DNA from: Carboxydothermus hydrogenoformans Z-2901
Lineage (GTDB): Bacteria; Bacillota; Z-2901; Carboxydothermales; Carboxydothermaceae
Direction: 5' to 3'
DNA: 64,000 nucleotides
NCBI RefSeq assembly: GCF_000012865.1
Contig: NC_007503.1
Span: forward strand, 1,240,001-1,304,000
The notes under the pieces are model-generated. The model was given only the letters and a program-made list of their open reading frames with translations, was not told the DNA's origin and made no database searches. Positions 38,730-53,463 of this stretch are shown here, piece by piece; positions within the stretch are counted from its first letter, which is position 1, and the number at the start of each line of letters is the position of its first letter. A program made the position numbers and the translations under genes.

Positions 38730-39491
38730 CTATTCGCTCCTTTCTGGAATCTCATCGATTAACATCGCCAATTCAAAAAAGCCCTGCCATAAAAGAATTT
38801 TTTCTTCTTTGGTAAGCCCCCTTACTTTTAGTAAATCCCGGCGCCGAAAAAGAGTATTTAGAAGGGATTGTTTTTTTCGCCATAAATCTATTTTTTTATG
38901 ATTACCCGAAAGCAAGACCTCCGGAACTTCCAGTCCTCGGAAATTACGAGGACGGGTATAGTGAGGATACTCTAAGAGCTGGTCACTAAAACTTTCCTCC
39001 TCGGCCGATACTTCATCACCCAATACTCCGGGAACCAAACGAGCCACCGCATCGATAATTACCATAGCGGCAATTTCACCGCCGGTTAATATGTAATCAC
39101 CAATCGAAATTTCTTCATCAACAATTAACTGGCGAACTCGCTCGTCAATACCTTCATAGTGACCGCAAATAAAAATTAAATGTTCCTTTTGGGAAAGCTC
39201 CCGGGCAAGCTTTTGATTAAATTTTCTTCCTTGGGGTGAAAGCATGATGGTAAATGAATTGTTCTTGGGAATTGCTTCGTATGCCTTAATTATAGGTTCA
39301 ACTTTCATGACCATACCGGCACCACCACCGTAAGGTTTATCATCGGCCTGGTGATGCCGGTCAGTAGTAAAATCGCGAATATTAATGTAGTTTATTGTTA
39401 TTATCCCTTTTTCTTGGGCCTTTTTTAAAATACTGCTGTTAAGGGGTCCGTAAAACATTTCAGGAAAAAGAGTTAAGATATCTATTTTCAT
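38730..39491 (-). CDS. trmD: tRNA (guanine-N1)-methyltransferase TrmD
   Basis: TrmD methylates N1 of G37 in tRNAs and prevents +1 frameshifts. The SPOUT knot motifs are [15 protein letters not shown] and [13 protein letters not shown], with MDVL-type start [13 protein letters not shown] and the [11 protein letters not shown] segment. Length 253 is usual. Its start overlaps the rimM stop by one base, and the two genes work on ribosome and tRNA quality together. Confidence 0.97.
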
Positions 39492-40009
39492 TATTTTTTT
39501 TCCTCCAACATCCCCGGCAAAAGTTCAACCTTGATAAAACCTTCAGGTAAATTTACTTCTTTAACGAATACCTTAATAAAAGGCAGGAGCAATTCTTTAT
39601 CATGGATGGTATCAATAACCAACAAATCATTAGCGGGATTTTTTAAAACCGTACGAACTACCCCTATTTTCTGGTAATTTAAATCATAAACGGTAAGGCC
39701 TTTTAATTGAAAAAGGTAAAACTCATTTTCTTTAAGCTGGACAATTTCGTTTTTTGGGATTTTCAGGTAACCAAAGATTAACTTATTTGCCTCTTTAATA
39801 TCATTAATTTCCATAAATTTTACCAAAATTCGCTCGGCCTGTAATTGCACCTCTTCGATACGCAGGGGAAAAATCTCATCTTCTTTTTCCCAAAATACCC
39901 TTTCGGTATTTAAAAACCGCTGAGGATGATCGGTTAAGGGTTCTACTTTTACCCATCCCTCAATCCCAAAGGTTCCAAGAACGTAGCCTATAGCAATTAA
40001 ATTATTCAT
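39491..40009 (-). CDS. rimM: Ribosome maturation factor RimM
   Basis: RimM aids processing and assembly of the 30S head. The N-terminal beta-barrel ([21 protein letters not shown]) and the C-terminal PRC-barrel ([18 protein letters not shown], ending [12 protein letters not shown]) are both present. Length 172 is normal. A terminator lies 20 bases upstream, after khpA, so rimM needs read-through or a promoter within this short gap. Confidence 0.95.
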
Positions 40010-40027
40010 TTCCCATCACCTTTTAAA

Positions 40028-40052
40028 AAAAAGGGGCAAAAAGCCCCTTTTT
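40028..40052 (-). terminator. Terminator/attenuator between khpA and rimM
   Basis: AAAAAGGGGC pairs with GCCCCTTTTT around AAAAA, starting at the khpA stop; a run of Ts follows on the minus strand. It would limit read-through into rimM-trmD. Confidence 0.85.
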
Positions 40053-40278
40053 ATACTATCTCTAAGATTACTTTCTTTTTTTCTTTCGAAGCTGCAGCCT
40101 TAACCAGTGTTCGTAAAGCTTTAGCAATTCTACCTTGCTTACCAATAATTTTTCCCACATCTTGAGGTGCAACTTTTAATTCAATTAAGATTGCTTTTTC
40201 GCCTTCGGCAACGGTTACTACCACTTCATCCGGATTATCAACCAATGATTTTGCTAAAACCTCAACTAATCTTTTCAT
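40051..40278 (-). CDS. khpA: KH-domain RNA-binding protein KhpA
   Basis: The 75-residue protein is a single KH domain with the GxxG loop in IGKQGRIAKAL, the pattern of KhpA (YlqC), which pairs with KhpB/Jag and affects cell elongation and division in Firmicutes. It lies between rpsP and rimM as usual. The stop codon is part of the terminator stem. Confidence 0.93.
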   Translation of the reverse strand: MKRLVEVLAKSLVDNPDEVVVTVAEGEKAILIELKVAPQDVGKIIGKQGRIAKALRTLVKAAASKEKKKVILEIV

Positions 40279-40296
40279 AAGTCCACCTCTCGGTGT

Positions 40297-40557
40297 CTAT
40301 TTTTGCTGAAATTTTTGTAAAACCCCGGCTTTTCTAAAAAGAGCGCGGGCAGTTTCGGTTAGCTGGGCACCTTTTTTAAGCCAGTCCAGAGCTTTTTCTT
40401 CGTTAATAACTACTGCCGCCGGCTGCTTCACCGGATCATAATAACCAATCTCATCAATAACGCGGCCATCCCGCGGCGAACGGGCATCGGCCACTACCAC
40501 CCGATAAAAGGGATTATTCTTTGCCCCCATTCTTTTCAAGCGTATTTTTACTGCCAT
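40297..40557 (-). CDS. rpsP: 30S ribosomal protein S16
   Basis: S16 is an early 30S assembly protein. The 86-residue sequence begins [32 protein letters not shown] in conserved fashion (residues 1-32) and has IDEIGYYDP. It lies 36 bases after ffh and 18 before khpA. Confidence 0.97.
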
Positions 40558-40593
40558 TATTTCACCTCCCTTATTAGGTTTCCAATTGCTATT

Positions 40594-41934
40594 TTATGAA
40601 AAGAAGGGAAACTTAATTTTTTTGCCTTTTTTTAACTGTTTCTCCATACCACCAAATTGTTTCATCAATTTCTTCATCTGTTCAAATTGCTTTAACAACC
40701 GGTTAACCTCTTGAATCGAAGTTCCGCTACCTTTAGCAATACGCTTTTTTCGGCTACCATCAATAATTTCCGGCTTTCTTCTTTCTTCGGGAGTCATGGA
40801 ATAAATAATAGCTTCGATGTGTTTTAGCTCTTTTTCATCAACCATCCCCGCAATATCTTTTACTTTACCCATCCCAGGAATCATTCCCAGTAATTGCTCT
40901 AACGGCCCCATCTTCTTTATTTGCTGCATGGAATCCAAAAAATCTTCCAAATCAAACTCCCTGCTTTTTAATTTTTCCTGCATTTTCTGGGCTTTTTCTG
41001 CATCTAAGGCTTCTTTAGCTTTTTCAATCAGGGTTAAAACGTCACCCATACCCAAAATACGGGAAGCCATTCGATCTGGATAAAAAGGCTCCAAGTTTTC
41101 AATTTTTTCACCCATTCCCGCAAACTTAATCGGGCATCCGGTTACAGCCTTAACCGATAAGGCTGCACCCCCTTTAGTATCCCCATCTAATTTGGTAAGA
41201 ATCACCCCGGTTAAACCTAACTCATCGTTGAAACTTTTTGCCACATTTACCGCATCCTGACCGGTCATGGCGTCCACAACCAACAGTATCTCGTGGGGAT
41301 GAACCACATCCTTGATTTTCTTTAGTTCATCCATCAATTCTTCATTGATGTGCAAGCGTCCTGCAGTATCAATTATGACGTAATTTTTTAAGTTTGACTT
41401 GGCAAAATTAATCGAAGCTTTGGCAATATCTACCGGTGACTGCTCTCCCATCGTAAATACCGGCACGTCAATGGTATCACCTAAAACCTGGAGCTGTTTG
41501 ATTGCCGCTGGGCGGTAAACGTCCGCAGCTACTAAAAGCGGTTTCTTCCCCTGTTTTTTTAATAAATAGGCTAACTTGGCAGCGGTAGTAGTCTTACCGG
41601 CCCCCTGCAAGCCCACAAGCATAATAATTGTTGGAGGCGAACCGGCATCATTTAATTTTGCATTGGTTTTTCCCATTAAATTTATTAATTCTTCATGAAC
41701 AATTTTTATTACCTGCTGCCCCGGGGTTAAACTTTCCAGTACTTCATGACCAACTGCTTTTTCTTTTACTTTAGCAATAAAATCTTTGACTACCTGAAAA
41801 TTAACATCAGCTTCCAAAAGAGCTATCCGCACTTCCCTGAGTGCCAGGTTAACATCTTCTTCGGTTAATCTTCCCTTACCTTTTAGCTTTTTAAAAACTT
41901 CCTGAAGTTTATTTGACAGGTTTTCAAAAACCAT
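40594..41934 (-). CDS. ffh: Signal recognition particle GTPase Ffh
   Basis: Ffh binds signal sequences and the SRP RNA and pairs with FtsY at the membrane. NG-domain motifs are GLQGAGKTTTAAKL, DTAGRL and TKLDGDTKGG, and the C-terminal M domain has the RNA-binding GSGTSIQEVNRLLKQF segment and a Met-rich tail (MKKLMKQFGGMEKQLKKG). Length 446 is typical. It follows ylxM by 14 bases. FtsY is encoded at 48961-49872. Confidence 0.97.
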   Translation of the reverse strand: MVFENLSNKLQEVFKKLKGKGRLTEEDVNLALREVRIALLEADVNFQVVKDFIAKVKEKAVGHEVLESLTPGQQVIKIVHEELINLMGKTNAKLNDAGSPPTIIMLVGLQGAGKTTTAAKLAYLLKKQGKKPLLVAADVYRPAAIKQLQVLGDTIDVPVFTMGEQSPVDIAKASINFAKSNLKNYVIIDTAGRLHINEELMDELKKIKDVVHPHEILLVVDAMTGQDAVNVAKSFNDELGLTGVILTKLDGDTKGGAALSVKAVTGCPIKFAGMGEKIENLEPFYPDRMASRILGMGDVLTLIEKAKEALDAEKAQKMQEKLKSREFDLEDFLDSMQQIKKMGPLEQLLGMIPGMGKVKDIAGMVDEKELKHIEAIIYSMTPEERRKPEIIDGSRKKRIAKGSGTSIQEVNRLLKQFEQMKKLMKQFGGMEKQLKKGKKIKFPFFS

Positions 41935-41948
41935 TTCATCCGCTCCCG

Positions 41949-42290
41949 CTAATCAAATAAATTTTTAATTTCTTCAAAATAAGGTAATAAAAGTTTATAG
42001 TTATCTTCACCCAGTAACTCTTGCATTTTCATTAGGATATTATTATACCGGGCTATTTTTTGTTCATTTTTTCTTAATAAACCGAGTTTTTCTTCAAAAA
42101 TGTTTAACTGCCGTATAGCCCGCTGTAAAATGTCATAAACTCCCTGCCGGCTTATTTTTAAATACTCGGCAATTTCCGCTAAAGACCAATTTTCGATATA
42201 ATAAAGTTCAAGAATTTCCCGTTGTTTTTCGGTCAATAAACCTCCATAAAGTTCTAACAAGCTTCCGTTTCGGGCAAATTCATCAATCAT
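41949..42290 (-). CDS. ylxM: YlxM-family SRP-associated helix-turn-helix protein
   Basis: YlxM proteins have a sigma-70-region-4-like HTH (LTEKQREILELYYIENWSLAEI, about residues 20-41) and are always near ffh; YlxM stimulates SRP GTPase function in Streptococcus. I chose ATG 42290 (MIDEFARNG), preceded by AGGTGA; a TTG at 42305 has no SD. The product is 113 residues. It is the first gene of the ylxM-ffh-rpsP-khpA operon, with a good promoter about 40 bases upstream. Confidence 0.92.
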   Translation of the reverse strand: MIDEFARNGSLLELYGGLLTEKQREILELYYIENWSLAEIAEYLKISRQGVYDILQRAIRQLNIFEEKLGLLRKNEQKIARYNNILMKMQELLGEDNYKLLLPYFEEIKNLFD

Positions 42291-42315
42291 TTTTTCACCT
42301 GTCAAGTATTTAACC

Positions 42316-42344
42316 TTTACAGTAGTATTTTATTTATATATACT
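42316..42344 (+). promoter_or_regulatory. Sigma-A promoter of the class III aminotransferase gene
   Basis: TTTACA (42316-42321) and TATACT (42339-42344) are separated by 17 bases. It overlaps the oppositely directed ylxM promoter. Confidence 0.7.
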
Positions 42345-42355
42345 TAAATTGTCAA
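42327..42355 (-). promoter_or_regulatory. Sigma-A promoter of the ylxM-ffh operon
   Basis: Consensus TTGACA (42350-42355) and TAAAAT (42327-42332) are spaced by 17 bases on the minus strand. Its sequence is interleaved with the plus-strand promoter. Confidence 0.8.
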
Positions 42356-42378
42356 GGAAAAAAGAAGGAGGCAAGAAA

Positions 42379-43752
42379 ATGGAACTTATTACCTTGGAGC
42401 AAGCTTTAACCTTAACCCGTCAGGATATCCGGGACCTCTACCGTGAGTACGTTAACGAAAGTTTAGCAACCCTTTTAAGTTTATTGGAATTTGATAAACA
42501 GTTTGTTAAAGCTAAGGGAACAAAAGTTTGGGACAATGAGGGAAATATTTATCTCGACTTTTTAGGAGGTTATGGTAGCTTAAACTTCGGTCACAATCCA
42601 GAGGAAATCTGGGAAGCGGTAAAAATGGTGGAAGAACTGCCCAATCTTTTGCAGGCCTCGATAGGTCAGTTAATTGGAGCAGCTGCCTACAATTTAGCAA
42701 AAATAACTCCTGGTAATTTAAAGCGGGTATTTTTTGGTAATTCTGGAGCAGAAGCTGTGGAAGGAGCGCTGAAGCTCGCCAGAATTTATACCGGACGTCC
42801 GGGCATTGTTTATGCTCACAATTCTTTTCACGGAAAATCTTTTGGCGCCCTTTCCGTTACCGGTAGGCAAAAGTACCAAACACCTTTTACCCCCCTCTTA
42901 CCCGAATGCTATCCCGTAACATACGGAGATTTAGACGAATTGGAGAATATCTTAAAATCCAAACCCATCGCAGCCTTTATTGTAGAACCAATTCAAGGTG
43001 AGGGTGGCGTTGTTGTTCCTCCGCAAGGCTATTTAAAAAATGCCTTAGAACTTTGCCATAAATACGGAGCACTGTTAATAGTGGATGAAATCCAAACCGG
43101 TTTTGGTAGAACTGGTAAAGTCTTTGCGGTAGAATATGACGAAATTGTCCCCGATATCATGTGTGTGGCTAAATCCCTGGGCGGTGGAGTTATGCCTGTG
43201 GGTGCGTATATAACCACTGATACTATCTGGAAAAAAGCTTACGGTTCCACCGATAAAGCAACCCTGCATACTTCTACTTTTGGGGGAAATACTAAGGCAA
43301 TGGCAGCAGTGATCAAAGCAATTGAGCTTTTAGTGAAGTGGGATTTAGCAAAAAAAGCCAAAGAACTTGGGGATTACTTATTGAGCCAGTTAAGTTCACT
43401 GCAAACCTCCTATCCCCTGATTAAAGAAGTCCGAGGTAAAGGTCTTTTAATTGGGCTCGAATTCAACGAACCCCAGGGCTTATTAAATAAAATTCCCGGG
43501 CTAACAAATCTCGCCCGGGAGTATACCGGCAGCTTTGTCGCTGGACTGTTAATGAATAAGCACAGGATTATTACCGCATATACCCTGAATAATCCTAATG
43601 TAATTCGCTTAGAACCACCCCTTATTGTAGAAAAAGAAGAATTGGACAGGTTAATCTATGCTTTAAAGGATATTTTTGAAAGCCACAGTAGTTTTTTAGG
43701 GGTAGCATCGGCCAACCTTAAAACGGTTATCGGCTCCCTTTTTAAGAGATAA
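42379..43752 (+). CDS. Class III aminotransferase, putrescine-aminotransferase-like
   Basis: This fold-type I PLP enzyme transfers an amino group from an omega-amine or similar substrate. Motifs are NSGAEAVEGALKLAR, VDEIQTGFGRTG and the cofactor Lys in CVAKSLGGGVMPVGAY. ATG 42379 (MELITLEQ) has GGAGG seven bases upstream, giving about 457 residues; this length and the N-terminal extension suit putrescine aminotransferase more than acetylornithine aminotransferase, but the substrate is not proven. The gene is monocistronic, with its promoter interleaved with that of ylxM, and its last 11 bases overlap the convergent rRNA methyltransferase gene. Confidence 0.82.
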   Translation: MELITLEQALTLTRQDIRDLYREYVNESLATLLSLLEFDKQFVKAKGTKVWDNEGNIYLDFLGGYGSLNFGHNPEEIWEAVKMVEELPNLLQASIGQLIGAAAYNLAKITPGNLKRVFFGNSGAEAVEGALKLARIYTGRPGIVYAHNSFHGKSFGALSVTGRQKYQTPFTPLLPECYPVTYGDLDELENILKSKPIAAFIVEPIQGEGGVVVPPQGYLKNALELCHKYGALLIVDEIQTGFGRTGKVFAVEYDEIVPDIMCVAKSLGGGVMPVGAYITTDTIWKKAYGSTDKATLHTSTFGGNTKAMAAVIKAIELLVKWDLAKKAKELGDYLLSQLSSLQTSYPLIKEVRGKGLLIGLEFNEPQGLLNKIPGLTNLAREYTGSFVAGLLMNKHRIITAYTLNNPNVIRLEPPLIVEKEELDRLIYALKDIFESHSSFLGVASANLKTVIGSLFKR

Positions 43753-44914
43753 CTTGTAAAATGAAAAACTTCAAATAATACGTTTCGGGTGAGGAGAGGA
43801 GCATCGGGTGATCTTTAGCTTGCCGCCGGGCTTCAATAATCCTCACTCTTTTTTTGGCATCAAACGCCGCCTCAGAAATCACATTCCAGAATAAATCTTC
43901 GGTTAAATGATACGAACAGGAACTGGTGACTAAAATACCCCCCTCATTTAAAAGCTTCAAAGCCCTTAGATTTATCTCTTTATAACCCCTTATGGCCCCA
44001 GGTAAAGCTTCTTTACTTTTGGTAAAGGCAGGAGGGTCTAAAATTACAATATCGAAATTTGCTCTATTCTTTTCCAGTTCGCGCAGGTAGTCAAAACAGT
44101 TCGCCTCGATAAAGAAAATTTTATCCTGAAATCCGTTTAATACAGCATTTTCCTGGGCCCGGGTTATCGCCTCGGAAGAAATATCTACCCCAATTACTTC
44201 TTTTGCTCCAAACCCGGCAGCATAAACGGAAAAAGCTCCCGTATGACAAAAACAATCCAGTACTTTTTTTCCATGGAAAAAAGGTTTTAAAGCTAAACGA
44301 TTTTCTCTCTGGTCCAAAAAATAACCGGTTTTATGACCTTCTTTTATATTCACCGAAAATTTAAAGCCATTTTCGTTAATTACCACCAGTTCCGGTACTT
44401 CGCCAGCTAAGAGTCCGGTTGCAAGGGGTAATCCCTCCTTGGTCCGCACCGGAACATCGCTTCTTTCATAAATACCCCTGGGTTTTATAACTTCCATTAA
44501 GGCCTCAACAATTAACGGTTTTAATTTTTCAATACCATAAGTTAAACTCTGCAACACCAAGTAATCTCCAAAACGGTCCACAATTAAACCGGGAATTTGA
44601 TCGGCTTCTCCGTATATCAAACGGTAAGCATCGGTATTGGAAACTACCGAGGAACGATACTGATAAGCTTTAATTATTTTCTTTTTAATCCAGTCATAGT
44701 TTATCTCTTCGTCGTGAAAAGACATTATTCTTACCGCAATTTGAGAGTTACTATTATAATAACCAATTCCTACAAAACGGTTATTATGGTCCAAAACACG
44801 AACTAATTCCCCCGGAGAATACGGGTATTGAGCGGCTAATTCGGTTTTATAAATCCAGGGATGGCCTCTGTAAACCCGATGGTTTCTCCCTTTTGTTAGA
44901 CGTACCGTTTGCAC
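43742..44914 (-). CDS. rlmI: Class I 23S rRNA (cytosine-C5)-methyltransferase, RlmI-like
   Basis: The 390-residue protein has an N-terminal PUA domain (VRLTKGRNHRVYRGHPWIYK) and a Rossmann methyltransferase domain with VLDCFCHTGAFSVYAA and ILDPPAFTKSK, then TSSCSYHL. This matches RlmI/YccW, which makes m5C1962 in E. coli 23S rRNA; the Bacillus-type relatives may have other targets. It lies five bases after the amidohydrolase gene at the end of the salvage cluster, though its function is unrelated. No clear terminator follows. Confidence 0.88.
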   Translation of the reverse strand: MQTVRLTKGRNHRVYRGHPWIYKTELAAQYPYSPGELVRVLDHNNRFVGIGYYNSNSQIAVRIMSFHDEEINYDWIKKKIIKAYQYRSSVVSNTDAYRLIYGEADQIPGLIVDRFGDYLVLQSLTYGIEKLKPLIVEALMEVIKPRGIYERSDVPVRTKEGLPLATGLLAGEVPELVVINENGFKFSVNIKEGHKTGYFLDQRENRLALKPFFHGKKVLDCFCHTGAFSVYAAGFGAKEVIGVDISSEAITRAQENAVLNGFQDKIFFIEANCFDYLRELEKNRANFDIVILDPPAFTKSKEALPGAIRGYKEINLRALKLLNEGGILVTSSCSYHLTEDLFWNVISEAAFDAKKRVRIIEARRQAKDHPMLLSSPETYYLKFFILQVIS

Positions 44915-44919
44915 TTTAT

Positions 44920-46221
44920 CTACCCCGCAACTAATTTTAATCCGCGTTTATTTGCTTCAAATTTAATTTTTTCCTCATCAAGGCGTGTTAGCTGTCTCTT
45001 TTCCATGATAATTTCCCCATCGACAATTACCGTGTCCACATCGGCTCCTTTGGCCGAATAAGCAATTAAGTTAAAAATGTTGTGTCTGGGATAAAAATTG
45101 GTTTCATTGGTATTAAGCAAAATTATATCGGCTTTATATCCTTCCTTAAGTAATCCAACTTCCGTTAACCCCAGGGCTCTGGCACCCAAACTCGTTGCCA
45201 TTGCGATAGAGGTTTTGGCGTTTAAAGCTTCTGGATTCATGCTGCTTACTTTTTGTAAGTAAGAAGCCGCACGTAATTCTTCAATCATGTCCAGGTCATT
45301 GTTACTTGCAGCCCCATCGGTGCCCAATCCTACTAAGACCCCGGCTTCTAACATTTTTGCCACCGGAGCAATTCCCGATGCTAATTTCATGTTGCTTTGG
45401 GGGTTATGAATGGCACCGACTTGATAACGTTTGAGAATCTGAATTTCCTCGTCATCGACATGTACTAAATGGGCACCTATGGTTTTTACCTCAAATAAGC
45501 CTAAGCTTTCTAAATGTCTGACCGGCGTTGTTCCATATCTTTCCTTGATAATACTTATTTCATCTAAAGTTTCGCTAATATGGATGTTTATCGGAACATT
45601 TAATCTTTTTGCTTCCCAAATTACATCCTTTAAAAATTCTGGAGGACAGGTATAGGGAGCATGAGGTGCCAATGCGGTAGTTATCCGACCATTTGCCTTC
45701 CCCTGCCACTTTTCAATAAAATCTATACTTTCCTTAAGTCCCTTTTCGCCGTTTTCCGGATCTAAAGCAACCATGCCACGGCTTAATATAGCCCGAATAC
45801 CGCTTTGTTCAACAGCATGAGCAACTTCATCCATGAAAAAGTACATGTCGCAAAATGTAGTAGTTCCGCTCTTAATCATTTCCACTATTCCCAGGAGACT
45901 TCCCCAGTAAACATCTTCGCCGGTTAAGCGGCTTTCACTGGGCCAAATAACATTATTTAACCAGTCCATTAAAGGAAGGTCATCGGATGCTCCCCGAAAT
46001 AAGGTCATGGCTACATGCGTATGACCATTAATTAAACCCGGTAAAGCTACTTTATTGCTACCGTCAATTATTTTTAAGTTCTCTTTATCATTTACCTCAA
46101 TATCAACACCAATTTTCGAAATCTTGTTTCCTTCAATTAAAATATCGTTTTCAACCGCTGCAAACTTATTTAAGTCTAAAACCGTAGTATTTTTTATTAG
46201 GATTGTCAATTCATTCACCAT
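44920..46221 (-). CDS. mtaD: MTA/SAH/5'-deoxyadenosine deaminase
   Basis: This amidohydrolase deaminates 5'-methylthioadenosine, S-adenosylhomocysteine and often 5'-deoxyadenosine to the inosine forms (family MtaD/DadD). Metal ligands H67 and H69 lie in GLINGHTHV; other active-site segments are APHAPYTCPPE, NIHISET and GTDGAASNNDLDM. The 433-residue length is typical. The start is uncertain: ATG 46221 is very close to a GGGG, and a TTG four codons later has better spacing. The gene is the fourth of the salvage set after the phosphorylase, hydrolase and aldolase-like genes. Confidence 0.87.
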   Translation of the reverse strand: MVNELTILIKNTTVLDLNKFAAVENDILIEGNKISKIGVDIEVNDKENLKIIDGSNKVALPGLINGHTHVAMTLFRGASDDLPLMDWLNNVIWPSESRLTGEDVYWGSLLGIVEMIKSGTTTFCDMYFFMDEVAHAVEQSGIRAILSRGMVALDPENGEKGLKESIDFIEKWQGKANGRITTALAPHAPYTCPPEFLKDVIWEAKRLNVPINIHISETLDEISIIKERYGTTPVRHLESLGLFEVKTIGAHLVHVDDEEIQILKRYQVGAIHNPQSNMKLASGIAPVAKMLEAGVLVGLGTDGAASNNDLDMIEELRAASYLQKVSSMNPEALNAKTSIAMATSLGARALGLTEVGLLKEGYKADIILLNTNETNFYPRHNIFNLIAYSAKGADVDTVIVDGEIIMEKRQLTRLDEEKIKFEANKRGLKLVAG

Positions 46222-46227
46222 CCCCGG

Positions 46228-46860
46228 TCAAAAAAGTTTTTTTAGATAATTAATTTCTTCCGAACTTAAAGTATGTGGGTTACGTACCTTTAATGCCGCT
46301 AAGTATATTTCTGCACATTTTTCTACAATTCGACAAAGGTTAAAGCAGACATCAAGATTTTCTCCCATGGTAATAAGACCATTGTTGGCCAGCAAAAAAG
46401 CATTATTGGCAAAAGCTTTTTCCTTTATTTCTAACAAATAACTTTCAGAATCAATATAAACCGATTTAAGTAAAGGCACGTCTTTTCCAATAGACCGTAC
46501 CATTTCCGGCAAAATAACCGGCAATGGTTCATGTAATACCGAAAGTGCAGTACAGTGTACGGGGTGAGCGTGAATGATAGCACGGACATCCGGACGAACG
46601 TTATAAATTTGCCGGTGGAGTTTTAAATTAAACTTTGCTTGATTTTCTCCCTCTAAAATATTCCCCTCCATATCCACAATTAAGACATCAAAGGTACTTA
46701 AGCAAGCCATATCGGGAGTAAGGGGAGTAATTACTACCACTTTCTCTTCCGGTATATACACACTCAAACTACCCCAGTTATAAAACATTAACCCGTACTG
46801 GCAAAGTTTTTGCGTTGTTCTAACTATCTTTTCCTTTAATTTTTCAACACTTAACTTCAT
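46228..46860 (-). CDS. Class II aldolase/adducin-fold protein missing key catalytic residues
   Basis: The 210-residue protein aligns without gaps over its core to L-fuculose-1-phosphate aldolase FucA. H97 and H99 (IIHAHP) match zinc ligands H92 and H94. However, the catalytic Glu (FucA E73) is Asn at N78, the third zinc ligand (H155) is Asn at N160 (LLANNGLI), and the phosphate-binding Ser-Ser before E73 is Lys-Phe. The nucleotide sequence confirms both Asn codons. It lies between the SAH-hydrolase-like and deaminase genes, where an aldolase for 5-(methylthio)ribulose-1-phosphate or 5-deoxyribulose-1-phosphate would be expected. The changes suggest a different reaction or a non-enzymatic role. 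Confidence 0.85.
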   Translation of the reverse strand: MKLSVEKLKEKIVRTTQKLCQYGLMFYNWGSLSVYIPEEKVVVITPLTPDMACLSTFDVLIVDMEGNILEGENQAKFNLKLHRQIYNVRPDVRAIIHAHPVHCTALSVLHEPLPVILPEMVRSIGKDVPLLKSVYIDSESYLLEIKEKAFANNAFLLANNGLITMGENLDVCFNLCRIVEKCAEIYLAALKVRNPHTLSSEEINYLKKLF

Positions 46861-46875
46861 TTAAACCCCTTCTCT

Positions 46876-48111
46876 TTAACCAAATAAATATTCTTTTTGG
46901 TCATCGGTTAACTTGTCTATTTCGATATTAAGCGATTTTAATTTATATAGAGCAACTTTTTCATCAAGTTCGTTTGGTAAATTATAAACTTTAGGTAATA
47001 ATTCATCATGTTTTTCCAAAAGATACAAAACCGCCAAGAGCTGTAATGAAAAAGAAAGATCTATAATTTCCGCCGGATGCCCTTGTCCCGCAGCCAAGTT
47101 TACCAAACGGCCTTCGGCAATAACGTTAAGCTGCCGGCCATCAGGGAGGATATAACCGGTTACCTTTGGCCTCACTTCGCGGATTTCCACTGCCATAGCT
47201 TTTAACTCATCGAGGTTGATTTCCACATTAAAATGACCGGCATTGGCAAGAATTGCACCGTTTTTCATTACTTCAAAATGTCTTCCCCGGAACACATCTT
47301 TGCAACCGGTAACTGTTATAAAGATATCTCCTATTTTAGCAGCGGTCAGCGAATCAGTAACTTCAAAACCATCCATATAGGCTTCTAAAGCACGAATGGG
47401 ATTAACCTCTGTAACAATCACCCGCGCACCAAGTCCCCGGGCTTTTTGTGCTACACCTTTACCACACCAGCCGTACCCTGCAACCACAAGATTCTTTCCA
47501 GCAATTAATAAATTGGTAGTAGCCATGAGGGCCGTAAGAGATGATTCCCCGGTACCATAACGATTATCAAACATATGCTTGGTTAAAGCATCATTTACCG
47601 CAATCATTGGAAATTTCAAGGCATTCTTTTTTTCCAGAATCCGCAAACGATGGACGCCCGTAGTTGTTTCTTCCGCACCACCAATTACGTTTAGCGCCAA
47701 ATCCGGGCGAACATGATGTAAGATGTGAACCAGGTCTCCTCCGTCATCAATAATAATATCGGGCTTAATTTCTAAAGCTTTTATTAAATGTTCTTCGTAC
47801 TCCGAAGGCGTAGCCCCATGCCAGGCAAAAACTTCTAAACCCTCTTCAACCAAGGCAGCAGCAATCTCATCCTGGGTTGAAAGTGGATTTGAGCCGGTCA
47901 CGGCAACTTCTGCTCCAAGATCTCGCAAAATTAATGCAAGGTAAGCAGTTTTTGCCTCCAAATGGATACTCATCGTAATCTTTTTTCCGGACAAGGGTTT
48001 TTCCCCAAGCAATTCATTTTTTAAATAATTTAAAACCGGCATGTAATTTTTGACCCAATTAATTTTTTGCTGCCCTAAAGGAGCAAGCTTTCTATCCCTA
48101 ATAATGCTCAT
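46876..48111 (-). CDS. ahcY: Adenosylhomocysteinase-family hydrolase, possibly S-inosylhomocysteine-specific
   Basis: The NAD-dependent 411-residue enzyme hydrolyses S-adenosyl- (or S-inosyl-) homocysteine to homocysteine and a nucleoside. The NAD motif is VVAGYGWCGKGVAQ, with SNPLSTQDE and NDALTKHMFDNRYGT also conserved. It lacks the long C-terminal tail of mammalian enzymes, as in archaeal types. The adenine-contact region reads HLEAKTA with K54 where human SAHH has E59, which bonds the adenine 6-amino group; the methanogen S-inosylhomocysteine hydrolase has the same motif, from memory. With the deaminase two genes away, inosine-type substrate use is plausible. Confidence 0.9.
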   Translation of the reverse strand: MSIIRDRKLAPLGQQKINWVKNYMPVLNYLKNELLGEKPLSGKKITMSIHLEAKTAYLALILRDLGAEVAVTGSNPLSTQDEIAAALVEEGLEVFAWHGATPSEYEEHLIKALEIKPDIIIDDGGDLVHILHHVRPDLALNVIGGAEETTTGVHRLRILEKKNALKFPMIAVNDALTKHMFDNRYGTGESSLTALMATTNLLIAGKNLVVAGYGWCGKGVAQKARGLGARVIVTEVNPIRALEAYMDGFEVTDSLTAAKIGDIFITVTGCKDVFRGRHFEVMKNGAILANAGHFNVEINLDELKAMAVEIREVRPKVTGYILPDGRQLNVIAEGRLVNLAAGQGHPAEIIDLSFSLQLLAVLYLLEKHDELLPKVYNLPNELDEKVALYKLKSLNIEIDKLTDDQKEYLFG

Positions 48112-48136
48112 AAAATTCTCCCCATTCCCCTGTTTT

Positions 48137-48934
48137 TTATTTCCCTAACTGACTTTGACCACTTACTGCCCTCTGACACCAGCAGTTCCGGTCGGGATCA
48201 AGGTTCTCAATAGTTTTAGCAATAAGGTTCTTTAATTGTTCACTTTTAGCGGTCATCATTTCCACAACTTCTTCATGGGTTAAAGGATTAGGTGAAATAC
48301 CAGCAGCATAGTTGGTCACTAAGGAAATTGAAGCATAACACATTTCGGCTTCCCTTGCTAACACAACTTCCGGAACGCTGGTCATTCCCACAAGGTCTCC
48401 ACCTAATTTTGCAAACATTTTTATTTCCGCTGCCGTTTCAAAACGCGGGCCTTCGGTACAAACATAGGTACCCGCAGGATGTACGGTATATCCCAACTCT
48501 TTCGCAGCGTTATAAATAATTTTTCGCAATTCCGGGCAATATGGTTCGGTGACATCGGTATGAATTACGCCTCGTTCGCCCCCATCATAAAAGGTATAAA
48601 TGCGGTTTTTCGTAAAATCAAGAAACTGGTCAATTAAAACAAAATCACCACCTTTCATATTTAAATTCAACGAACCAACGGCAGTCGTTGCAATAATTTG
48701 CTTAACTCCCAGCGTTTTCAACCCCCAGATATTGGCCCGGTAATTAATAAGGTGGGGTGGAACCGTATGGCCAGCTCCATGGCGTGGAAGAAATGCCACC
48801 CTTTTACCTGAAAGTTCGCCTATCGTAACTTCAATATCGCCATAAGGCGTAGCTACTTTTTCTCTGGAAAGATTATTTAACATCTTCGGGTCATAAACAC
48901 CGGTACCACCAATTACTGCAATTTTTACAGACAT
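48137..48934 (-). CDS. mtnP: MTAP-family nucleoside phosphorylase, likely methylthioinosine/6-oxopurine type
   Basis: The 265-residue enzyme splits a purine nucleoside with phosphate into base and ribose-1-phosphate analogue. Family motifs are GGTGVY, RHGAGHTVPPH and TEGPRFETAAEI. The base-specificity loop reads SLVTNYAAGI with N208, like 6-oxopurine phosphorylases, rather than the TDYDCW of human methylthioadenosine phosphorylase. It may therefore prefer methylthioinosine, deoxyinosine or inosine over MTA. It follows ftsY by 26 bases and is the first of the salvage genes; the mtnA isomerase is not here. Confidence 0.88.
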   Translation of the reverse strand: MSVKIAVIGGTGVYDPKMLNNLSREKVATPYGDIEVTIGELSGKRVAFLPRHGAGHTVPPHLINYRANIWGLKTLGVKQIIATTAVGSLNLNMKGGDFVLIDQFLDFTKNRIYTFYDGGERGVIHTDVTEPYCPELRKIIYNAAKELGYTVHPAGTYVCTEGPRFETAAEIKMFAKLGGDLVGMTSVPEVVLAREAEMCYASISLVTNYAAGISPNPLTHEEVVEMMTAKSEQLKNLIAKTIENLDPDRNCWCQRAVSGQSQLGK

Positions 48935-48960
48935 TGGAATTCCTCCCTGCGGTTTATTTT

Positions 48961-49872
48961 TTAAGATGAAAATAACGCTTCAACAAATTCTTGGGGGTCA
49001 AAGGGTCTTAAATCATCCATTTTTTCCCCAACCCCAATAAATTTTATTGGAATTTGATAACTACTTTTAATCCCTATAATTACACCGCCTTTAGCTGTTC
49101 CATCCAGTTTTGTTAAAACCAACCCGGTCAAATCCAGGGCTTTATTAAAATACTCCACTTGACTTAAAGCATTCTGTCCGGTAGTGGCATCCAAAACTAA
49201 TAAAACTTCATCAGGAGCCCCCGGTAACTCCCTTTCTATTACTCTTTTTACTTTTCTTAGTTCTTCCATTAAGTTTGTTTTTGTATGAAGCCTACCAGCG
49301 GTATCAATAATTAATACATCTATTTTTCGGGCAATGGCCGCCTTAACTGCATCAAAAGCCACCGCTGCCGGGTCCGAACCTTCTTTTTGTTTTATCACCG
49401 GACATCCTACTTTATTACCCCAGATTTCCAATTGCTCTATGGCAGCAGCCCTAAAAGTATCGCCAGCTGCTAACAATACCTGCTTTCCTTGTTGCTTGAA
49501 GTAGTAAGCTAATTTCCCGATAGTGGTAGTTTTACCTACACCATTTACCCCTACTACCAATATTACCAGGGGCGTTCTTGGGACATTCTTCAGTTTATTG
49601 TCTCCCGCTTCTAAAATTTTTAAGATTTCTTCTTTTAACACCTGCTTTAATTGCTCACTATCGGTAATCCGTCGTTCTCTTGCCGTTTTTCTTAGCTTTT
49701 CCACCAGCTCAAGACTTGGTTTAACACCCACGTCACCTTCAATCAATATTTCTTCCAGTTTTTCAAAAAGCTCCTCATCGACCGTCGACTTTTTGAAGAC
49801 ATCCTCAATTTTAGCTACGATGTTTTGCTTGGTTTTTATTAAACTCTCTTTTAAACGGTCAAAAAATCCCAA
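48961..49872 (-). CDS. ftsY: SRP receptor FtsY
   Basis: FtsY is the membrane-associated GTPase receptor for Ffh-ribosome complexes. The 303-residue protein is the NG core with a very short N-terminus, no acidic A domain, as in many Gram-positives. Motifs are GVNGVGKTTTIGKL, DTAGRLHTK and TKLDGTAKGG. It follows smc by 33 bases in the classic rnc-smc-ftsY order. Confidence 0.97.
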   Translation of the reverse strand: MGFFDRLKESLIKTKQNIVAKIEDVFKKSTVDEELFEKLEEILIEGDVGVKPSLELVEKLRKTARERRITDSEQLKQVLKEEILKILEAGDNKLKNVPRTPLVILVVGVNGVGKTTTIGKLAYYFKQQGKQVLLAAGDTFRAAAIEQLEIWGNKVGCPVIKQKEGSDPAAVAFDAVKAAIARKIDVLIIDTAGRLHTKTNLMEELRKVKRVIERELPGAPDEVLLVLDATTGQNALSQVEYFNKALDLTGLVLTKLDGTAKGGVIIGIKSSYQIPIKFIGVGEKMDDLRPFDPQEFVEALFSS

Positions 49873-49905
49873 ACTTCCTCACCTGCCATTACATTATCTT
49901 TTTTC

Positions 49906-52900
49906 TTACCCTGCTTTAATATTTTCCATGGGAAGCGAAAGAACTTTGGAACATCCATCTTGCATGCTAATGCCAATTAACTTTGCACAGACTTCCATAC
50001 TTCCCCGCCGGTGGGTGATAAGGATCACCTGGTTTCTTTCCCCAATTTTTTTTAAGTAAGCAGCAAAACGCTGAACATTTGCTTCATCTAAAGCGGCATC
50101 AATTTCATCCAAAACGCAAAAAGGTGACGGTTTTAGATTAAACAGGGCAAAAAGCAAGGCTATTGAGGCCAGAGCCCTTTCGCCACCGGAAAGAAGCCCC
50201 AAAGGTTGGCGCTTTTTCCCTGGAAGCTCCACAATAATCTCAATTCCCTCTTTTTGATCTTCTCCAACAACTTTTTCTAAGGCAGCACGTCCTCCCCCAA
50301 ATAGCTCTTTAAATACTAAGTCATACTCTTCGTTAAGTAACTTTAAAAACTCGTTAAACCTTTGCTCCATTTCTTCGGTTAATTGGCTTAAAAGTTTTTC
50401 TAATTGTTCTTTAGCCTCATTAAGATCATTTCTTTGCTGATTTAAAAAATTAATGCGTTCTTCCAATCGCTTAACTTCATCAATTACAAAAAGATTTACC
50501 GGGCCCAACCCCTGAATTTGATTGTAAAGCTCTTCAATTTCCCTTTCCTCAATATAAACCGGTTCTAATTTTAATACTTCCTCATCTCCCAACACTATAT
50601 CGTATTTTTCATTCAATAACAACTTTAACCTGTTGATTTCCTGTAAAAGGTTGCGCTGTTCCGTTTCTAAACGCGAAATCTCGGCAAAATGTTTTTGTAT
50701 TAGTTTTTGGGTTTTTGTCAGAGTCGTTTGCATTTCCGAAAGTTTATCCTTTAACTCCTCATGCTTATTTTTAACAGTTTCAAAATATTTTTTACTCACA
50801 GAAAGTAAATCCCCATGGGCCGCTATCTTGCGCTCTAAAGTTAAAAAATCTTTTTTAAGATTTAAAATTTTATTTTTAAACTCTAAGGCTTTTTTAGCAC
50901 TGACCTTCTGTCTTTCAAAGAGTTCTTTTTTTTGGAGACTTTTTTCATTTATAAGGTTAAAAATATTTTCCAGCGCCTTTTCTAATTGAACCTGCTGTAA
51001 CGTTAGTTCTTGATAGTAATTTTGATTTTCATATATTAAATCATTGATTCTGGATATTTCCTTTTCAAGAAAAGCAATCTTTTCCTCTAATTTTTTCTTA
51101 AGAGAAATAATATTGTTGATTTGTTGTTCCCTATTTTCTTTTTCCACTAACAAATTTTTCTTTTCCCTATTATTTTTATCTAACTGCCCTTTTAGCTCAA
51201 TTAACCTACTTTCTATTAAATTCCTTTTATCTTTGATATTTTGTTCTTTTAAATCGGCCTCAGTTAGCTGGGCTTCTATGTCACTCAGCTTTTCTCCAGT
51301 TAATTTTATTGTTGCGTCAATATCCTCCTGTTTTTTTAAAAATGCACTTAATGCCTCTTCCACTTCATTATTCTTTTGTAAAAGCTCATCAACTTGCTTT
51401 TGAAGTAACTTTATTTCATTTTTTCTTTGTAAAACCGAGACAGTTTGATTAAAACTACCACCAATAATAATTCCACCAGGGAGCAGCAATTCTCCCTCAA
51501 GACTCACTACTTTATAACGATGTTTGGTCTTTTTCGCAATGATTAAGCAGGATTGATAATCCTTTCCTACCAGAACTTTACCTAAAAGGCTTTCGTAAGC
51601 TTTAGAAAGCTCCTGGGGAAACGAAATTAAATCAAGGGCAGTACCTATAAAACCATCACTATCCGTTAAATTGCTGAAGTCACCTTTTAAACTTTCCGTT
51701 TCCAGCAAATCAAGGGCCAAAAAGGTTATTCTGCCGAGATTTTTTAATTTTAAATATCTTATAATACCTTCTAAATCCCGAGAACTTTTCACAATAACAT
51801 TTTTTATCCCCGCACCCAAAGCAGTTTCAACCGCTAATCGATATCTTTCATCAACTTCTAAAAACTCCCCAACAGTTCCTATGATATTATCCGGATTAGG
51901 CAGTAAGCCACTTTTTTTTGCCTCAAATAAATTTTTTACGTCTTTTCCGTAACCTTCATAACTCTCTTCAAGCTTAGTTAATATTTGTAAGCGGGTAATA
52001 TTTTCATTATATTTTTTTTCCAAAACCCTTTTTTCGTTTTGCAGGATTAAAATATTTTTGGCTAATAAATTCAATTCTTCTTCCAGTTTCTTTCGTTTAT
52101 TTTTTAACACTTCCCGCTTTCTCAGATTTTCCTTTTTAAAATCGTTTAAGCTTCTCAGAGTATTTTCTATTTCACCAATTTCTCTATTTAGTTCATATAT
52201 ATCTTTTTCAATCTTTAAAGAATCGTTAGTTAACCTTGTTAAGGAGTCAGAAATAAAATTAATTTCATTCCTTAACGACACTTCACGAAAATTTAACTCA
52301 AATTGTTCATCTTTACAATTTTCCAAGCTCTTCTTTAATTCCAAAAGTTTCTCTTCGTTTATCCCAAGCTTTTGCTTCTGCACTTTAAGATTTCCGATAA
52401 TCTCCCTTTCTTTGGCTTTTAAATCCTTTACTTGTCTTTGGTACGAATTTAATTCTTGATTTATTTCAACAAGTTTCCTGCCATTTGCTTTAATCTGTTC
52501 TTTTAAGCTTTTAAGCTCCAACCAGAGGCGATTTTCTTCTTCTTGTTGATATTTTTTGACGTTGTCAAGTTTCTCTAAACAGCTTTCTAAATTTAAAACA
52601 ATTTTCTGCAGGTTATCAGAAAAAAGACCTAACTTTCCTTCCTCGGAAAGAATCTTTGCAAAACTTGCTTCCAGGCGGTTAACCTGGTCCTGATTCTTTT
52701 CAATAAGATTATGTAACAGGGTGATTTTTTCTTCGTTTTCCCGAACTTTATCCAGTAAATTTTTTATTTTTATTCCATAATAATTTTTAGCTTTAAAGGT
52801 AAGTTTTTCTTTTAATGTTAAATACGTTTTTGCTTTAATAACATCCTGTTCTTTAGCCTGTAATTGGTTAGTTAACTCGTTGGTCAGGTCATTAAGCCTG

Positions 52901-53463
52901 GTAATCCCGTTCTGAGTTTCCAACAGCTTTTTCTTCGCTTCCAACTCCCGCATCCGAAAGCGGTTAATTCCTGCAGCCTCTTCCAGATAGCTTCTTTTTT
53001 CTTCCGGTGACGAAAACAGAATCTCATCCACCTGGCCCTGACCGATAATGGCATAGCCATGCTTCCCAAGCCCAGTATCCACCAATAACTCATGAATGTC
53101 TTTAAGTCGGCAGGGAGATTTATTTATGTAAAATTCACTTTCTCCCGAACGAAAAAAGCGCCGCGTAATTGCTATCTCAGCGTAAGGCAAGGGAAAATGC
53201 TTATTACTGTTGTCTAAAATTAATGTTACCTCAGCCATTCCTACCGGTTTTCTTCCCTGCGAACCGGTAAAGATTACATCCTGCTGTCGCTCAGAACGTA
53301 AAATCTTTGTTTTTGTTTCTCCCAAAGCCCAGCGAATTGCTTCCGCAACGTTACTTTTACCGCTACCGTTTGGTCCCACGATACCCGTTATCGAAGGTTC
53401 AAAAGTTATTTCCGTTTTTTCCGCAAAGGATTTAAAACCCTGGATAACTACTTTTTTTAACAC
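49906..53463 (-). CDS. smc: Chromosome segregation protein SMC
   Basis: SMC is the ATPase of condensin-like chromosome organisation, working with ScpA and ScpB. The 1185-residue protein has Walker A GPNGSGKSN near residue 32, two long coiled coils, a hinge at about 505-660 (VGEFLEVDERYRLAVETALG), and a C-terminal head with signature LLSGGERALASIALLFA and Walker B CVLDEIDAALDEAN. Length is typical. It starts one base after the rnc stop. Confidence 0.97.
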   Translation of the reverse strand: MLKKVVIQGFKSFAEKTEITFEPSITGIVGPNGSGKSNVAEAIRWALGETKTKILRSERQQDVIFTGSQGRKPVGMAEVTLILDNSNKHFPLPYAEIAITRRFFRSGESEFYINKSPCRLKDIHELLVDTGLGKHGYAIIGQGQVDEILFSSPEEKRSYLEEAAGINRFRMRELEAKKKLLETQNGITRLNDLTNELTNQLQAKEQDVIKAKTYLTLKEKLTFKAKNYYGIKIKNLLDKVRENEEKITLLHNLIEKNQDQVNRLEASFAKILSEEGKLGLFSDNLQKIVLNLESCLEKLDNVKKYQQEEENRLWLELKSLKEQIKANGRKLVEINQELNSYQRQVKDLKAKEREIIGNLKVQKQKLGINEEKLLELKKSLENCKDEQFELNFREVSLRNEINFISDSLTRLTNDSLKIEKDIYELNREIGEIENTLRSLNDFKKENLRKREVLKNKRKKLEEELNLLAKNILILQNEKRVLEKKYNENITRLQILTKLEESYEGYGKDVKNLFEAKKSGLLPNPDNIIGTVGEFLEVDERYRLAVETALGAGIKNVIVKSSRDLEGIIRYLKLKNLGRITFLALDLLETESLKGDFSNLTDSDGFIGTALDLISFPQELSKAYESLLGKVLVGKDYQSCLIIAKKTKHRYKVVSLEGELLLPGGIIIGGSFNQTVSVLQRKNEIKLLQKQVDELLQKNNEVEEALSAFLKKQEDIDATIKLTGEKLSDIEAQLTEADLKEQNIKDKRNLIESRLIELKGQLDKNNREKKNLLVEKENREQQINNIISLKKKLEEKIAFLEKEISRINDLIYENQNYYQELTLQQVQLEKALENIFNLINEKSLQKKELFERQKVSAKKALEFKNKILNLKKDFLTLERKIAAHGDLLSVSKKYFETVKNKHEELKDKLSEMQTTLTKTQKLIQKHFAEISRLETEQRNLLQEINRLKLLLNEKYDIVLGDEEVLKLEPVYIEEREIEELYNQIQGLGPVNLFVIDEVKRLEERINFLNQQRNDLNEAKEQLEKLLSQLTEEMEQRFNEFLKLLNEEYDLVFKELFGGGRAALEKVVGEDQKEGIEIIVELPGKKRQPLGLLSGGERALASIALLFALFNLKPSPFCVLDEIDAALDEANVQRFAAYLKKIGERNQVILITHRRGSMEVCAKLIGISMQDGCSKVLSLPMENIKAG

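Follow-up and report, generated by a model that had tools for sequence, protein, structure and literature searches.

The window (the whole stretch of DNA that was analysed, 64,000 nucleotides of Carboxydothermus hydrogenoformans Z-2901) carries a salvage operon on the reverse strand. Its genes are listed below, followed by the residues that matter in one of them, here called ald*. Residue equivalences were taken from alignments to E. coli FucA, and codons were read directly in the DNA.

48137-48934 (-): mtnP, methylthioadenosine/methylthioinosine phosphorylase (TIGR01694 above cut-off)
46876-48111 (-): ahcY, adenosylhomocysteinase family (TIGR00936 above cut-off), 15 bases upstream of ald*
46228-46860 (-): ald*, class II aldolase-fold protein (210 aa) whose aldolase active site is lost
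44920-46221 (-): mtaD-like deaminase (5'-deoxyadenosine / MTA / SAH deaminase type), 6 bases downstream of ald*
43742-44914 (-): RlmI-like 23S rRNA cytosine methyltransferase, last gene of the run
46768-46770 (-): Ser31, replaces FucA phosphate-site Asn29
46717-46722 (-): Leu47-Thr48, replace FucA phosphate-site Thr43-Gly44
46627-46635 (-): Lys76-Phe77-Asn78 (codons AAG-TTT-AAT), replace FucA phosphate-site Ser71-Ser72 and catalytic Glu73
46564-46572 (-): His97-Ala98-His99, kept metal-ligand histidines (FucA His92 and His94)
46381-46383 (-): Asn160 (codon AAT), replaces FucA metal ligand His155

No Rfam match and no tRNA were found near the operon, and promoter-like sites there were at chance level. 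The surroundings (39491-53463), named by eye, include RimM-like, Ffh, YlxM-like, FtsY and chromosome-segregation SMC genes. A class III aminotransferase lies on the forward strand at 42349-43752; its best NCBIfam matches were PigE and putrescine aminotransferase, both below their cut-offs.

In relatives, the operon reads mtnP-mtnA-ahcY-ald-mtaD, and rlmI follows mtaD in several of them, as it does here. The slot between ahcY and mtaD is occupied by a canonical aldolase in these genomes, and the syntenic orthologues of ald* are canonical DHAP-shunt-type aldolases. The trio of mtnP or mtnK, mtnA and aldolase makes up the DHAP shunt, or 5-deoxyribose salvage pathway (PMC6079011, PMC10986504). In Carboxydothermus, mtnA is absent from the ald* operon. 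In Methanocaldococcus and Thermotoga, a deaminase is known to act before an AhcY that cleaves S-inosylhomocysteine (PMC10978960). By analogy, the operon may work by this route, and its ahcY product possibly acts on S-inosylhomocysteine.

The ald* frame is intact over its 210 codons, and the product belongs to the class II aldolase superfamily: the PF00596 profile matched with 121.7 bits (curated cut-off 22.2), and sequence matches to FucA and DrdA structures had E values of 2e-28 to 1e-18. The scores for the MtnB dehydratase (TIGR03328, 41.1 bits) and the AraD epimerase (TIGR00760, 53.9 bits) were under the respective cut-offs of 137.05 and 389.1. An AlphaFold2 model, made from a nine-row alignment that included IMG/VR homologues, reached a mean pLDDT of 87.4 and a pTM of 0.87. 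It matched FucA with a TM score of 0.88-0.90 and DrdA with 0.86-0.87; the fold is therefore predicted to be preserved. A fold search against viral structures gave nothing useful, and a literature search found no paper linking Carboxydothermus to the gene. IMG/VR contigs classed as viral (L151-L154, L160, L161) also carry class II aldolase homologues, with L153, L154, L160 and L161 forming one related group.

The active site was lost at several points. The catalytic Glu of the family (FucA E73, DrdA E76) was Asn78 in all three Carboxydothermus species. FucA is described as requiring both this residue and Tyr113' (PMC11841055), and in DrdA the equivalent Glu76 serves as metal ligand and base (PMC6079011). 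Two of the three metal histidines were kept (His97 and His99), and the third was Asn160. None of the phosphate-site elements N29, T43-G44 and S71-S72 was retained. Pro118 stands at FucA Y113, a position held mostly by Glu or Asp in the relatives, and the C-terminal tail that the relatives carry (the FucA Tyr209/Arg212 region) was missing. The original prediction had named the two kept histidines, Asn at E73 and H155, and Lys-Phe at S71-S72, and alignments and codons agreed with it exactly. Right in the changes it listed, it understated the extent of the alteration, as N29, T43-G44, Y113 and the C-terminal tail were changed as well. E. coli FucA (PDB 1FUA; mutants E73Q, E73S, S71Q and N29Q) shares the fold and two of the three metal histidines with ald*, which naturally replaces several of the positions that the FucA structural studies mutated singly or in small sets. 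Without the Glu, the third metal His, the tail and the phosphate site, aldolase activity of ald* on a sugar phosphate is judged very unlikely.

The two other Carboxydothermus genomes carry ald* at 95% (C. islandicus) and 80% identity with the same replacements. As three genomes agree, a sequencing error was ruled out as the origin of the pattern. The replacements were then set against 108 other aligned sequences, a set drawn almost wholly from the same phylum that also contains E. coli FucA and a single Aerophobetes row. N29, S71, H92, H94 and H155 were each found in 108 of 108, and position 73 was Glu in 105 and Asp in 3. Three rows with incomplete extracted ORFs were left out of this count; L021 and L027, which belong to these, had canonical residues. 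Of 17 family-invariant columns, 7-8 were lost in ald*, compared with three in the next worst row and a median of 0. In L086, L131 and L008, the residue at FucA 73 is Asp and the three histidines are intact; these homologues may be epimerase-like or belong to other subfamilies.

When peptide patterns were run against 84,980 species genomes, the hits were limited to C. islandicus and a single homologue that has Asp at position 73 and retains the three histidines. No further close relative of ald* was found in 398 genomes of the phylum and in the 113-genome class of the nearest orthologues. In these searches, which reach close relatives only, a wider subfamily with the ald* pattern beyond the genus was not found. 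The homologue comparison proposed with the original prediction thus showed Asn78 and Asn160 conserved as a group of their own, confined to one genus as searched. The prediction's view that ald* departs from a normal fuculose- or ribulose-phosphate aldolase stands too: with catalytic and phosphate residues and one metal ligand lost, such an enzyme is very unlikely.

Only two PF00596 proteins are encoded in the genome, ald* and a paralogue, ald2. The mtnA gene lies ~104 kb from the ald* operon, and ald2 directly follows it. The paralogue is fully canonical in its active-site residues, and the two proteins share about 30% identity. Both genes coexist in all three Carboxydothermus species. Judged from its residues, ald2 can very probably supply aldolase activity to Carboxydothermus.

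In a tree of 111 rows, the three altered ald* proteins formed one clade nested among the operon-type aldolases (support 86/93, 85/90 and 86/76). The ald* stem was long (1.45 changes per site); ald2 fell into a separate clade on a stem of 0.44. Support for the clades that tie ald* to the operon aldolases is moderate, and since long stems are known to cause misplacement, the exact position of ald* is uncertain. The tree, with this moderate support, and the synteny, as independent support, show that ald* descends from the operon's DHAP-shunt-type aldolase. Carboxydothermus mtnA fell outside the operon-type mtnA clade (86/83), which is expected if the mtnA-ald2 module was acquired separately.

Between the window genome and C. 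islandicus (the closest pair), the dN/dS of ald* was 0.069 (NG86) and 0.060 (YN00). The neighbours and ald2 had values of 0.05-0.16 (NG86), and ald* was comparable with or below mtaD, ahcY, rlmI, mtnA and ald2. The substitutions were unevenly distributed: variable residues across the three species numbered 7 in the first 100 and 37 in the last 110. Four-fold sites differed between the window genome and the most distant species in both halves of the gene (22/32 and 19/30). The conservation of the N-terminal half could reflect an interface. All 25 former-pocket positions were invariant in the three species (variable: 0/25 versus 44/185 elsewhere, p=0.003), but the test covers three species and is confounded, since 19 of the 25 positions lie within the conserved N-terminal half. 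For this reason, the comparison suggests, without proof, that the remodelled pocket is under constraint. The earlier argument against a pseudogene holds, as the frame is intact and the dN/dS of 0.06-0.07 is like that of the operon neighbours; with three genomes in agreement, the pseudogene reading was rejected. As ald* has been left almost unchanged by evolution, it has probably been repurposed and not abandoned.

Our preferred explanation, to which we give a probability of roughly 55%, is that ald2 displaced the DHAP-shunt aldolase of the operon and that the latter was repurposed, most likely as a non-catalytic binding or regulatory pseudo-aldolase. It builds on observed synteny, residue losses, an intact paralogue and constraint. 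The ancestor of ald* would have been an aldolase of the Ald2/DrdA kind within mtnP-mtnA-ahcY-ald-mtaD, cleaving 5-methylthioribulose-1-phosphate or 5-deoxyribulose-1-phosphate to DHAP and an aldehyde. Isomerisation and aldol cleavage would have passed to a separate mtnA-ald2 module in the ancestor of Carboxydothermus, and the operon's native mtnA would then have been lost. We infer that this displacement was the cause of the change in ald*. In a burst of change, the operon aldolase may have lost its acid/base Glu, a metal-binding His, the C-terminal tail and the phosphate site in its entirety, after which strong purifying selection would have frozen the protein. With its remodelled, conserved pocket, ald* would now probably bind a pathway metabolite or a partner as a regulatory or accessory subunit. 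The protein has the marks of a pseudoenzyme: catalytic residues are lost, while the fold (as predicted) and purifying selection are kept. DrdA/Ald2 (PDB 6BTD, 6BTG; EC 4.1.2.62) is similar to ald* in fold, probable ancestry and mtnP context, with mtnA present in the relatives. In contrast to ald*, which has no Glu, third His, phosphate site or tail, DrdA keeps Glu76, and the canonical relatives keep three histidines and the phosphate site.

The original prediction proposed that ald* may catalyse a different reaction. In a rival reading along this line, ald* would be a neofunctionalised enzyme with a new lyase, hydrolase or isomerase activity, and its substrate would be a nucleoside or deoxy-sugar intermediate handled by the operon. 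His97 and His99, possibly with Asn160 or Asn78, would form a weak or altered metal site, and Lys76 and Thr48 would hold a carboxylate or other group. The two metal histidines and the pocket, all invariant in the three species, would be compatible with a new catalytic activity too, and the chemistry of the family is varied. Pyruvic oxime dioxygenase, which has the class II aldolase fold, performs new chemistry, and its sequence no longer contains Glu73, Tyr113 or the phosphate site (PMC11841055). However, that enzyme keeps all three (Fe-binding) histidines and ald* only two, and ald* has also lost the acid/base Glu, the Tyr and the tail. The adducin head domain shows the other outcome: its His ligands were lost, catalysis is reported absent and the fold became a binding domain (PMC12599920). 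It shares with ald* the class II aldolase fold with a lost metal site, although adducin is a multidomain eukaryotic cytoskeletal protein, whereas ald* is a bacterial, stand-alone operon protein in which two histidines remain. A binder is favoured over a new enzyme because the dioxygenase keeps its three histidines, whereas the adducin head, reported to be non-catalytic, lost its ligands. Since none of the named residues for catalysis and phosphate binding is left and a metal ligand is gone, a non-catalytic ald* is at least as likely as a new reaction, and we regard neofunctionalisation as possible, at about half the weight of displacement and repurposing. The narrower proposal, that a metal site of two histidines (plus Asn) without a Glu base performs an undescribed step in S-inosylhomocysteine, methylthioinosine or 5'-deoxyinosine salvage in Carboxydothermus, is doubtful. 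We know of no active family member without His155.

In class II aldolases, the active sites are located at the boundaries between subunits. A dead ald* subunit could sit in mixed tetramers with Ald2 and tune it, and the predicted fold and the joint presence of both genes in all three species are compatible with this. Yet the proteins are only about 30% identical, belong to different clades and are encoded in different operons, which makes such tetramers unlikely. Far less credible is an ordinary shunt aldolase that tolerates the substitutions. It would explain the shared operon slot and the two kept metal histidines, but ald* lacks the tail, a metal ligand and every named residue for catalysis or phosphate binding, and the genome has a canonical paralogue. 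Decay, with the gene kept only for translational coupling, comes last. The gaps of 15 and 6 bases to the neighbours would suit it; it is contradicted by the dN/dS of 0.06-0.07 and by an N-terminal half that is nearly invariant though synonymous sites differ widely in both halves.

It is confirmed that ald*, a conserved protein, has lost its aldolase active site in a genus-specific manner, and the evolutionary cause, displacement by ald2, is probable. An enzyme in a salvage operon has seemingly been displaced by a homologue and converted within one genus, while the canonical form keeps the slot in relatives. The automatic annotation of ald* as L-fuculose-phosphate aldolase is very probably wrong for Carboxydothermus. 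The same applies to pathway reconstructions that count it as the shunt aldolase, for which the mtnA-linked paralogue is the real candidate. At locus L036 (7448-11549), mtnA and ald2 are followed on one strand by pyrimidine-nucleoside phosphorylase-like, cytidine deaminase-like and deoC-like genes, so that DHAP-shunt genes are joined to a nucleoside-breakdown cluster.
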